Below are positions 18,756 to 27,770 of a stretch of 64,000 nt of DNA, one piece after another. The stretch is taken from assembly GCA_021776595.1 (NCBI GenBank), contig JAJFFP010000008.1, positions 1-64,000 of the forward strand, given 5' to 3'. The stretch's first letter is position 1. Every line of letters starts with the position of its first letter. The translations under genes and the position numbers were made by a program. The notes under the pieces are model-generated. The model did not search any database. It was not told the origin of the DNA and saw only the letters and a list, made by a program, of their open reading frames with translations. Origin of the DNA: Robiginitomaculum sp. GTDB taxonomy: Bacteria > Pseudomonadota > Alphaproteobacteria > Caulobacterales > Maricaulaceae.

Positions 18756-18851
18756 GTCATTACCGGGTTTATCCTGGCAATCCAGGAATAAACACTTACC
18801 TCATCCTGAGCTTGTCGATGGATGGATTATCCGAACAAGTAGGGCAATGAC
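18756..18851. repeat. degenerate palindromic intergenic repeat (REP-like)
   Basis: Bounded by GTCATTACCGG at one end and GGGCAATGAC at the other (imperfect inverted ends). It contains CTCATCCTGAGCTTGTCGA followed by TGGATG, a form widely dispersed between genes in alphaproteobacteria. It fills the gap between the convergent receptor and dihydroorotase-like genes. The inner hairpin is worn. Confidence 0.6.
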
Positions 18852-21520: not shown

Positions 21521-22992
21521 TGAGCAAATTAAACGAACTTACGCTGGCTGAGGCACGCAAAGGTCTTACAGATAAAACTTTTTCTGCGCGCGAGCTAACG
21601 AGTGCGCATCTGGATGCAATAGAATCTGCCGGTGTGCTTAATGCCTATCTGTTAAGCACCACTGATCTGGCCTTGACCATGGCAGACGCATCCGATGCAC
21701 GGCGTATGAATGCGCAAACCGGTCCGCTCGATGGCATTCCTTTGGGTATTAAAGACCTTTTTTGCACTAAAGGTGTGCGCACCACGGCGGGGAGTAAAAT
21801 CCTTGGCGACTTTACCCCGACTTATGAAAGCACGGTCAGCGCCAATTTGTGGCGTGATGGCGCGGTGATGCTGGGCAAACTCAATCTCGATGAGTTTGCC
21901 ATGGGCTCTTCCAATGAAACCTCCGCTTTTGGCCCGGTGGTTAATCCATGGCGTGCCAAAGGCGAAGCTCAAAACCTGGTGCCAGGCGGCTCCTCCGGTG
22001 GTTCTGCGGCGGCGGTGGCAGCGCAGTTGTGCCTTGGGGCAACTGCAACAGATACTGGCGGCTCCATCCGCCAACCGGCCAGTTTTACCGGTACTGTTGG
22101 GGTGAAACCCACCTATGGGCGCTGTTCGCGATGGGGAATTGTCGCGTTTGCCTCCTCTTTGGATCAGGCTGGTCCAATCGCCCGCACGGTAGAAGATGCG
22201 GCCATATTGTTAAACTCCATGGCGGGGTATGACCCAAAGGATTCCACCTCAATCAAGGCTGATGTGCCTGACTTTACTGCCGCCTGCACCCAACCCTTGA
22301 AAGGCAAGCGCATTGGCATTCCCAAAGAATACCGGGTTGATGGCATGCCCGCAGAGATAGAAAAATTATGGGCAAACGGGATGGATTGGCTGCGCGCCGA
22401 GGGTTGCGAGATAATCGATGTTTCTCTGCCGCATACCAAATATGCCTTGCCTGCCTATTACATTATCGCTCCTGCTGAAGCCTCATCAAATCTCGCCCGC
22501 TATGATGGTATGCGTTATGGTTCCCGTATTGAAGGGGCCGATCTTGCCGAAACCTACCAAAACACTCGCGGCCAGGGCTTTGGTGAAGAAGTGCGCCGAC
22601 GTATCATGATTGGCACCTATGTGCTCTCTGCCGGGTTTTATGACGCCTATTATATTCGTGCGCAAAAGGTTCGCGCCCGCATAACCGAAGATTTCAAGAA
22701 TGTATTTGAAAAATGCGATGCGCTGCTCACCCCAACGACCCCCAGTTCTGCTTTTGGCATTGGGGCACGCAATAATGATCCATTACAGATGTATCTGAAC
22801 GATATTTTCACCGTTACGGCCAATCTTGCAGGCCTGCCCGGTATTTCCGTGCCCGCTGCCCTGGATAATACTGGCCTTCCCCTGGGCCTGCAGGTGATTG
22901 GAAAAGCCCTTGATGAAGAAACCTGCTTTGCCGTTGGTGCCGCATTGGAACGTGCAGCAGGCTTTAACACAAGACCAGGAAAGTGGTGGTGA
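21520..22992 (+). CDS. gatA: Asp-tRNA(Asn)/Glu-tRNA(Gln) amidotransferase subunit A
   Basis: 490-residue glutaminase subunit of GatCAB, of the amidase-signature family; it releases ammonia from glutamine and channels it to GatB. The Ser-cisSer-Lys triad is visible: Lys78 in GIKDLF, the cis-serine in PGGSSGGS (155-162, probably Ser158) and the nucleophile Ser182 in TGGSIRQPA. It ends RPGKWW, close to the family's usual end. Start overlaps the gatC stop by one base. It is followed by a 70-bp gap with a perfect short palindrome before gatB. Confidence 0.97.
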
Positions 22993-23018
22993 AGGAAGTT
23001 ATTTCCCTTCACCTCAAT

Positions 23019-23036
23019 CCTCTCCCAAGGGAGAGG
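23019..23036. repeat. short perfect palindrome between gatA and gatB
   Basis: CCTCTCCC-AA-GGGAGAGG, a perfect 8-bp inverted repeat inside the 70-bp gatA-gatB gap, with flanks (CCCTTCACCTCAAT) like a common alphaproteobacterial intergenic repeat. No T run follows, so it is not a standard terminator; it may still affect mRNA stability between the two genes. Confidence 0.6.
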
Positions 23037-23062
23037 AAGAAAAAAGAAACGGAAAGAAAAGA

Positions 23063-24972: not shown

Positions 24973-25179
24973 AGGGTCACTGGCCGTTTGCCAGTTTGCA
25001 GGTGTAGCCTGTCATGCCCCAGTTGACCCTCAGATTGTAAATGAAACAACCCGCATAAACCTGTTGAATTAGGCGCTACGGCCTCCGTTTTCGCTATACC
25101 TGAATTTCTTGCTAACATCGCACTCAATACGCTATGACCACCAAGCCGTGCTTTAATGCACGTCGTGGGGAAGCCATTT

Positions 25180-27450
25180 ATGAACACTTTAATTACTGAG
25201 TTGCGTCGTCGTAACATCTTTCGTGTAGCCGGTGTCTATGCCGTTGTTGGCTGGTTGCTCGCACAGGCGGCAGGTGTGCTTGAAACCTCAATGAACATGC
25301 CCGCATGGTTCGACACCATGGTGGTCAGCTTGCTGCTGATCGGGTTCCCCATCGCCATGCTGCTGGCCTGGGCGTTTGAAATGACCCCTGAAGGGGTGAA
25401 GCGCACTGAGAACGTGGCCGAAGGGGACAGCGCAACTGCAAAAACCGGGCGTAAACTGGACTATGTAATTGTTATAGGGCTGGTGCTGGTTGCCGCATTG
25501 GTGGTGTGGCAAGGTATGCGCGATCCATCCGGGCCCTTCGAGGCCGCGAAAAGCGCGGCACCTCAGGGTGAGGTTGGAAAAGTTGCCGATAACGCGGCAC
25601 CTCAGAGCCTACCCCGAACTGGATCCGGGGGTGAGGTTGGAGGTGTAACAAATATCAACCCTCATCCAGAGGTGCTTGGCGATAGCCAAGCCTCGAAGGA
25701 TGCTGATGCCCAAACCACCCAAGCCCCGTCCATCGCGGTTTTGCCGTTTGAGGATTTCTCGCAAGACAAGGATCAGGAGTATTTCGCCAACGGGATTTCC
25801 GAGGAATTGCTGAACGTATTGGCGCGGATCAAAGGCTTGCGGGTGGCGTCGCGCACCTCGGCGTTTTCGTTCCAGGGTGGCGATGCCAAGACCGGCGAAA
25901 TCGCCGAAGCCCTGAACGTCGGGCATATTCTGGAGGGCAGCATCCGTAAATCCGGCACCACTTTACGCATTACCGCGCAATTGATCGACGCCTCCACTGA
26001 CCAACATATGTGGTCCGAAACTTATGACCGGCCATTGACCGCCGAAAACCTGTTTCAAATCCAGGACGAAATCGCCGCCGCCATCGTCGGCGAACTCAAA
26101 GGCCGGTTGTCTATTCGCACAACCGAAGCCCCGGCCCGCACTCAATCGCTGGAGGCCTACGAGCTTTACCTGAGAGCACGCGTAAATATGAACAAGCGGC
26201 TACCGGCGACACTGACCGCCGCTGTGGCTGGTTTCAAACAGGTGATTGCGCTCGACCCTGATTTTGCCCCTGCTTATGCCGGGCTGGCCGATAGTTATCT
26301 GCTGATGCTCAAGTACACGGATATAAGCTTTGACGAGAGCCAACGTCTTGCGAAACCCAATGTAGAGCGCGCCTTGCAACTTGCCCCGAATGCAGCAGAA
26401 AGCCTGACCTCTGCTGCATTTCTGGCATTAACGAAGAATGAATTTGAAAAAGCAGTGGCGTTGGCAGACCGTGCCATTGCGGTAACCCCGAATTATTCGG
26501 ATGCCTATTTGCGTAAATTCAACGCATCAAATGGCACCAAAGAGCGTTTAGCCAGTATTGAAAAAGCCCGCGCTCTTGACCCGCTATCTGCAGTAATTCT
26601 ATCTAATCTTGGCGCTGCACAAGTTAGGGCAGGTGACAGAGAGGCCGCCAGAAAAACCATGCGTGACAATGTGAGCTGGAACCCGGATAGCATTTTTGGC
26701 TATATAGGTTTGGGCGCATTGCTGTATCAAGAAGGCGAACTTGCCGCCGCCCATAGCCACTATAAAGATGCACAAGCGCTTAATTCTGAAGCAAGTATTA
26801 TACAAACTCCGCTTTCCAATTTATATTTTGATGTTGGCTTGTACGGCGAGGTGTCCGCCGTTTCGCCACAAGTTAGTGATCGCGCACTTGCCCTGTTGCT
26901 GGGTGGACAAAAACAGCAGGGCATGAAACTGGTGCAGGATAATCCGGATGACCCAAGCATGGGTTATGTTTTGTATGTGGCCGGGGATGTAAAAAATACC
27001 TACGCCATAATGCGCAAATTCGTAAAACGGTATAATGTGTTAGAGCAAACCGTGAATGCTGACACTGCAGAATGGTTAGCCACAATTGCGTTTATTTTCC
27101 AGGAAAACGGCGATCCTGATGCGAATATTCTCATAGGTAATCTTGAAACCTATTTAGGCAAAGACGCCAGCGCCGCAGACAAAGTTTTCAACAGCGACTT
27201 GCGCGCCGGCATCATTTTGCAATTGCTCAAGGGCGACAAGTCCGCCGCCTATGCCTGGCTTGACCGCTATCTGGATTTGGGATTTGCCGACACCGTCCTG
27301 CTAACCACGCCGCCGTTTGAATCCTTACGCCGCACCCCAAAATTTGCCAAACGCGAAACCCGCATGGCGCAAAACGCCGCGCGGCACCGCGCTAAAATCG
27401 AAGCGCAACTAGCCAACCCGAAACCAAACTGGGTGAAGGAAACCCCGTAA
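25180..27450 (+). CDS. membrane-anchored TolB-like/TPR protein (adenylate-cyclase-associated type)
   Basis: 756 residues. Order: cytoplasmic N-terminus starting MNTLITELRRRNIFRVAG, helices at about 15-35 and 45-65, a third at about 92-110, a low-complexity linker at about 110-178, a TolB-like N-terminal module (SIAVLPFEDFS ... FANGISEELLNVLARI ... GHILEGSIRKSG, about 180-300) and tetratricopeptide repeats to the end. This is the common architecture attached to class III adenylate cyclases, here without a cyclase domain. Probably a signalling or scaffold protein. ATG 25180 has GGGGAAG before it. Oddity: the linker is made of palindromic repeat DNA read in frame (25554-25702). It is flanked by both copies of the 29-bp repeat. 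Confidence 0.82.
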   Translation: MNTLITELRRRNIFRVAGVYAVVGWLLAQAAGVLETSMNMPAWFDTMVVSLLLIGFPIAMLLAWAFEMTPEGVKRTENVAEGDSATAKTGRKLDYVIVIGLVLVAALVVWQGMRDPSGPFEAAKSAAPQGEVGKVADNAAPQSLPRTGSGGEVGGVTNINPHPEVLGDSQASKDADAQTTQAPSIAVLPFEDFSQDKDQEYFANGISEELLNVLARIKGLRVASRTSAFSFQGGDAKTGEIAEALNVGHILEGSIRKSGTTLRITAQLIDASTDQHMWSETYDRPLTAENLFQIQDEIAAAIVGELKGRLSIRTTEAPARTQSLEAYELYLRARVNMNKRLPATLTAAVAGFKQVIALDPDFAPAYAGLADSYLLMLKYTDISFDESQRLAKPNVERALQLAPNAAESLTSAAFLALTKNEFEKAVALADRAIAVTPNYSDAYLRKFNASNGTKERLASIEKARALDPLSAVILSNLGAAQVRAGDREAARKTMRDNVSWNPDSIFGYIGLGALLYQEGELAAAHSHYKDAQALNSEASIIQTPLSNLYFDVGLYGEVSAVSPQVSDRALALLLGGQKQQGMKLVQDNPDDPSMGYVLYVAGDVKNTYAIMRKFVKRYNVLEQTVNADTAEWLATIAFIFQENGDPDANILIGNLETYLGKDASAADKVFNSDLRAGIILQLLKGDKSAAYAWLDRYLDLGFADTVLLTTPPFESLRRTPKFAKRETRMAQNAARHRAKIEAQLANPKPNWVKETP
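25554..25702. repeat. three palindromic repeat blocks read in frame inside a coding region
   Basis: Block 1 (25554-25577) is CGCGGCACCTCAG then GGTGAGGTTGG. Block 2 (25593-25640) repeats both halves but with about 25 extra bases between them that form a CCCCG/CGGGG hairpin of the usual REP type. Block 3 (25663-25702) is a hairpin with CTTGGC-GATA-GCCAAG at its heart and outer arms CATCC/GGATG. All lie in the linker of the TolB-like/TPR gene and keep its frame open. Confidence 0.75.
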
Positions 27451-27482
27451 TCCTGAACCACATTATCAAAACAAACCCACCC

Positions 27483-27571
27483 GTGTCACCCCGGAAGCTA
27501 ACAGGCTATCCGAGGTCTATGGTGACTGAGCACTGCATTATGGATCCCGGCGCGGGGGCCAGGATGACACG
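27483..27571. repeat. REP-like palindromic intergenic repeat
   Basis: Ends are imperfect inverted repeats: GTGTCACCCCGG on the left and CCAGGATGACACGG on the right. An inner GGATCCCGGCGCGGG segment is typical of the GTCAYCCCGG family of dispersed alphaproteobacterial repeats. It follows the TolB-like/TPR gene by about 30 bp. Confidence 0.65.
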
Positions 27572-27663
27572 GTTTGAGTTGCGGGATGATACGGTTTGTG
27601 TGTTACCTTGGCCCTCTAAACCTTACTTCGCAGCCTGTTATGGCTTGTCCTCGCCCTCCCTCC

Positions 27664-27770
27664 GTCAGCTACGCTGACACCTCCCCCGTAAACGGAGGAG
27701 GAAAAAGCACAAGGCTTCTATCCTCCGTTTACGGGGGAAGTGACCCCACCAGTTCGTGTAACTGGTGGGG
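27664..27770. repeat. composite palindromic module of three hairpins
   Basis: Three nested signals: GTCAGC-TAC-GCTGAC (27664-27678); an 18-of-19 inverted pair CTCCCCCGTAAACGGAGGA (27681-27699) against 27721-27739, separated by 21 bases; and a perfect 11-bp stem CCCCACCAGTT with loop CGTGT (27744-27770). A dispersed non-coding repeat rather than a gene. Confidence 0.75.

Follow-up and report, generated by a model that had tools for sequence, protein, structure and literature searches.

In-frame palindromic REP dimers in the linker of a TolB-like/TPR gene of Robiginitomaculum sp. and at fixed sites of glyS and carB

Dispersed palindromes that lie in frame in unrelated genes have been described as Rickettsia palindromic elements (RPE) (Ogata 2000, 2002, via PMC10969869 and PMC3733652). 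The CGTC-tagged REPs of the alphaproteobacteria are small palindromes whose tag frequently reads TGTC or CCTC and precedes a stem that begins with AT (PMC3733652). These REPs have a stem of 8-9 bp, a loop of 4-5 nt and a CCA tail, and occur mostly as head-to-head dimers without a dedicated transposase (PMC3733652). Some of the dimers lie inside open reading frames, including those of tRNA synthetases (Di Nocera et al. 2013, PMC3733652), and different REPs were found at about the same recB site in two Xanthomonas species (PMC3733652). REPINs consist of two inverted REPs with a short spacer and are mobilised by RAYT transposases (PMC3116915, PMC2817692).

The window analysed here is the whole stretch of 64 000 nucleotides from a Robiginitomaculum sp. 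(genome G000), which contains a TolB-like/TPR gene with a palindromic linker. The original prediction likened this linker to RPEs, and the likeness was borne out: dispersed palindromes entered the gene in frame, adding peptide and leaving the gene intact, the same was found in unrelated genes, and for glyS and carB orthologues with empty sites were identified. However, the host does not belong to the Rickettsiales, the elements are REP dimers, and the two are likened by description and not by sequence. The CGTC REPs share with this family the CCTC tag, the head-to-head dimers and the location of dimers inside open reading frames; the arrangement CCTC-ATCC...GGAT was present in dispersed copies and in REP unit 2, and head-to-head pairing was seen in the window units, in glyS and carB, and in the majority of the dispersed copies inspected. 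In contrast to the loop of 4-5 nt in CGTC REPs, the long units here have a large inner hairpin, the stem comprises 9 pairs but is bulged (5+4), and no CCA tail was seen. Because loop and tail differ, the family is regarded as a CGTC-like relative and not a member. Two further differences are that the palindrome family at one and the same slot varies here between species and genera, and that one gene family bears the element in ~20 homologues.

The likeness to REPINs extends to the two inverted REPs with a short spacer and to the presence of RAYT genes in the genome of the window; the difference is that here these REPs are missing from the scanned flanks of the RAYT genes and that REP-rich congeners have no IS200-like match. 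Two genes for REP-associated tyrosine transposases (RAYT, NF047646) were identified, at L107:1360-1881 (G000:C35, 186 bits) and at L104:20-700 (G000:C61, 80 bits). In the flanking stretches available for L101-L105 and L107, which hold the scanned Y1_Tnp genes, there was no R1 match (see below), and searches for an IS200-like transposase in G010 and G017, both REP-rich, were negative. A RAYT as the mover of these elements was therefore unsupported.

The features of the locus are listed in Table 1. The gene, for which an alternative upstream ATG at 25156 is possible, encodes three N-terminal helices, then the TolB-like domain, then the TPRs. In the AF2 model the helices span residues 2-37, 41-66 and 86-111 and precede an alpha/beta domain (183-304) and the TPR helices. 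Linker residues 110-179 (numbering from 25183) had a pLDDT < 50 and were without secondary structure in the AlphaFold model, which predicts that the linker is disordered. Folding of the whole linker gave a z of -5.0. The reading frame stays open through the entire palindromic linker, as had been claimed for all its blocks, and the ORF is uninterrupted. Directly past the stop codon, at 27480-27585, there is a further inverted pair (GTGTCACCCCGG ... CCAGGATGACAC). Just 3' of the gene, at 27643-27760, lies a CTCCCCC palindrome dimer (cctcccccgtaaacggaggagg ... cctccgtttacgggggaag), of a family that in G003 and G004 also fills the slots of glyS and carB.

Table 1. Positions in the window of the host gene, its linker and the elements within the linker
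Feature	Position	Strand	Description	Basis
Host gene	25180..27450	+	Membrane-anchored TolB-like domain + TPR protein	ORF, Pfam TPR families, AF2 model
Linker, predicted disordered	25510..25719	+	Last membrane helix to TolB-like domain; almost wholly palindromic elements	
REP unit 1	25534..25573	-	Long type with CCGCG/CGCGG as inner stem	Model R1, 33.3 bits, E 3.8e-6
REP unit 2	25660..25702	+	Long type, stem GCTTGGC/GCCAAGC	Model R1, 57.5 bits, E 4.3e-12
Extra unit	25579..25641	+	63 nt (21 codons): 39 nt tandemly duplicated from part of unit 1 + 24-nt nested insert	
Nested palindrome CCCCGAACTGGATCCGGGG	25612..25630	.	Second dispersed family	Sequence and composite copies elsewhere in genome

The linker was confirmed to be built from palindromic dispersed repeats. 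The covariance model R1, trained on 20 REP sequences from these genomes, among them unit 2 but not unit 1, matched unit 2 (E 4e-12) and unit 1 (E 4e-6), and a search of the genome for the blocks found many further copies. The two units lie on opposite strands with their heads inward, forming a head-to-head dimer by the R1 model. One model matches both units, and the third block is the family of the first in inverted orientation, not the separate family initially assigned; the element begins at ~25532 and not at 25554, the outer arm of unit 1 having been overlooked. The hairpin of unit 2 gave a z of -3.1, and this unit has 1 mismatch to the homologous unit of L086 in G006. The 63-nt extra unit is absent from the linkers of L017 and L086, both of the same linker type. 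Its direct repeats are GGGTGAGGTTGGA at 25566 and 25629 (spacing 63) and CGCGGCACCTCAG at 25554 and 25593 (spacing 39). The second block was correctly read as part of the first with extra bases carrying their own palindrome: 24 nt, at 25606-25629, with CCCCGAACTGGATCCGGGG within. The composite sequence of the second block is itself dispersed, for example at G000:C52:6141-6182 (86%) and C56:8334-8380 (81%), so the block may have been nested before it was copied into the linker.

Nested growth of repeats, also part of the original prediction, was seen in independent examples: the G012 glyS insert is one REP within the loop of another, a 24-nt (8-aa) unit occurs three and seven times in TolB/TPR paralogues of G017, and a CCGGATC palindrome lies inside the second REP of one G015 paralogue. 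That part of the claim stands; for the linker in the window, nesting in situ and the copying of an already nested element both fit.

The dispersal of the CCTC-headed family was assessed by model and pattern searches in which 150 candidates per genome were scored, and all counts are lower bounds. Exact copies of the pattern numbered 25 in the genome of the window and 12, 43 and 42 in the others of four congeneric genomes, while a reversed control pattern gave 0 copies in the same four. R1 matched at least 99 sites in the genome of the window and up to at least 101 in other congeners, and none of the candidates scored in three congeners. Most dispersed copies inspected were also dimers, some with a nested CCCCGGACCTGATCCGGGG-type insert, and the second block is therefore of a dispersed composite type. 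A short-type copy lies elsewhere in the window, at 18799-18824, where a TonB-dependent receptor-like gene and a dihydroorotase-like gene converge. At 22898-23060 the gatB ORF has a TTG-started extension that contains a palindrome-coded stretch; the true gatB start is probably further inside the ORF.

Palindromic in-frame inserts are not peculiar to the TolB/TPR linker. The genome of the window has the same REP dimers in frame in single-copy glyS, in single-copy carB and in the E2 linker of pdhC. The glyS slot is empty in eight congeners, G006 among them. It is occupied by a CCTC REP dimer in a 72-73-residue version in G000, G010 and G017 (the coded peptide is, for example, FETRQKGAPQDE), by a nested dimer in G012 and by another in G011. 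CTCCCCC palindromes fill the slot in G003, G004, G008 and G013, and in G003 and G004 they form a dimer at the same site. In carB the CCTC dimer was found in G000, G010, G017 and G012 and CTCCCCC-type palindromes in G001, G003 and G004, the remaining readable congener sites being empty. The carB gene of G012 (L192, G012:C14) has a one-base frame change, possibly a homopolymer sequencing error, within a run of G that adjoins the REP dimer. Both genes hold the same palindrome family in all six species (6/6) that have inserts of a recognised family in both. On a three-gene tree the filled states do not form one clade, which calls for repeated gain or loss or for the exchange of alleles. Even sister species differ, glyS being REP-bearing in G011 and empty in G015.

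A comparison of 79 genomes of the bacterial family, congeners included, gave alignments that split at this position of glyS in many genera. Among the sites scored across family and congeners 16 were filled and 23 empty, numbers that are not frequencies, many sites being unreadable with the pattern used. At least one of three palindrome families was present in 14 of the 16 inserts, and a fifteenth (G033) had a CGTCATCCTGAG-type palindrome pair. The genus g7 (G023, G039, G124) has near-identical glyS flanks and three different arrangements between them: one genome holds a dimer of CTCCCCC palindromes, another a dimer of CCTC REPs, and the remaining one a CCTC REP with a CCGGATC palindrome. Extra residues beside the inserts, such as LSDLPEADLIQIADAI, are shared across genera; they are as compatible with a single old insert that was precisely lost several times as with repeated gains.

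The TolB/TPR linker was compared across 99 relatives and the own genome. REP motifs directly follow the last membrane helix in 20 homologues from six congeneric genomes; most of these are dimers and two are only a half or a remnant, while the linkers of REP-less homologues are mostly 55-69 aa. Homologues thus exist both with and without the insert, and no distant orthologue with the same linker in a genome without other copies turned up. The long/long type is found in the window gene, in its G010 orthologue, which adjoins the same thioesterase gene, and in one gene each of G004 and G006; the other linkers are short/short types and mosaics, and in several linkers a remnant arm of a long REP, GATCAGAGGGAGCCTCGAAGGATG, comes after a short REP. 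In G017 the 8-residue unit is expanded up to sevenfold, and three paralogues have near-identical linkers in common. Within-genome homogenisation of the linkers was, however, unsupported overall (permutation p 0.47). A single REP-bearing clade of TolB/TPR genes was rejected by AU tests on trees of the two gene halves with the linker left out (p 1e-4 for the N-terminal tree and 2e-34 for the TolB/TPR tree), a test that recombination would break. L081 (G004:C48:16500-34500) is a tandem array of ~8 TolB/TPR paralogues, some REP-linkered and some not, and constitutes a large lineage-specific expansion.

Substitution rates in glyS and carB were estimated from pairwise comparisons among G000, G010 and G017, six in all, each estimate being rough with inserts of ~40 codons. 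In 6/6 comparisons dS was lower in the inserts (0.31-0.42) than in the flanks (0.93-1.60) and omega was higher (0.40-1.25 versus 0.04-0.11), a pattern expected of repeated DNA under little protein constraint. The linker in the window had a dS of 0.46 against L086, with > 2.5 in the flanks. Against the syntenic orthologue L017 its dS was 0.82, compared with 1.86 and 1.23 outside the linker, and its omega 0.38, compared with 0.08 and, in the C part, 0.22. By this orthologue the signal is weaker than that of glyS and carB, and in the comparison with the paralogue L010, which has the other REP type in its linker, there was no such effect.

Several explanations were weighed against these data. The in-gene hairpins might act in the mRNA, through ribosome pausing for membrane insertion or through protection or cutting of the transcript, with selection keeping the palindrome. 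Strong predicted hairpins, both of the whole linker and of unit 2, the reduced synonymous change within the glyS and carB inserts and the position of the TolB-family elements directly after the last membrane helix are in keeping with such a role. Nevertheless glyS and carB encode cytosolic enzymes without a membrane segment, the element is missing from many homologues, and the palindrome type varies freely among species, and we consider a regulatory role improbable. A single ancient insertion handed down with the gene, its differences due to drift and precise loss, would account for the agreement of the G000 and G010 orthologues in dimer type and synteny and for the residues shared beside the glyS inserts across genera. 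The presence of distinct palindrome families at one codon between shared flanks, the lower dS in inserts than in flanks, and REP-bearing and empty sister species such as G011 and G015 for glyS all speak against simple inheritance, which is already disfavoured and which we rate as very unlikely.

It is equally hard to credit that the shared REPs serve as a recombination joint, by which TolB/TPR paralogues swap N-terminal membrane modules. On neither of the trees above do the REP-bearing genes form one clade, and in L094_3001 of G015 half a REP is followed by a downstream linker seemingly orthologous to that of a REP-less gene. Yet the likeness of N-terminal modules is no greater within genomes (median 0.714) than between them (0.72), the linkers have no within-genome excess, and glyS and carB bear the same insertions outside any paralogue family. 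Domain shuffling via the linker was unsupported in general, with one clear chimera only and no within-genome signal.

Instead, the linker is probably a tolerated mobile or selfish REP dimer that evolves as a repeat rather than as protein. A dispersed CCTC-headed dimer would have inserted in frame into this family of TolB/TPR genes, and the linker would later have gained 63 nt through tandem duplication and nesting of a second palindrome. Inserted dimers would survive only where the frame was left open and a flexible loop added, presumably without benefit to the protein. The inserted DNA may then be re-copied, nested into or exchanged for another palindrome, either by entry of a new palindrome into the old one followed by loss of the old arms, or by recombination between dispersed copies. 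The REP inside a REP loop in G012 glyS and the leftover long-REP arms beside short REPs would be relics of such turnover. A further proposal, which we regard as possible but somewhat doubtful, is that the glyS, carB and TolB/TPR codons are long-lived slots that, once filled, are entered again and overwritten by the palindrome family active at the time; hairpin-directed exchange would keep length and frame while unrelated REP families succeed one another across genera.

In-frame REPs and RPEs are known; new here is that palindrome families are repeatedly exchanged at fixed slots in coding sequence, and such exchange across several species and families in essential genes goes beyond the literature found. 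A literature search for REP-coded peptides gave no matches. These data extend protein-coding palindromes to a further genus outside Rickettsia, one in which close relatives still show the empty sites. Single codons of essential genes here present a natural series of empty, filled, nested and exchanged states, which makes the movement of REPs without an obvious transposase testable by comparison of close strains.
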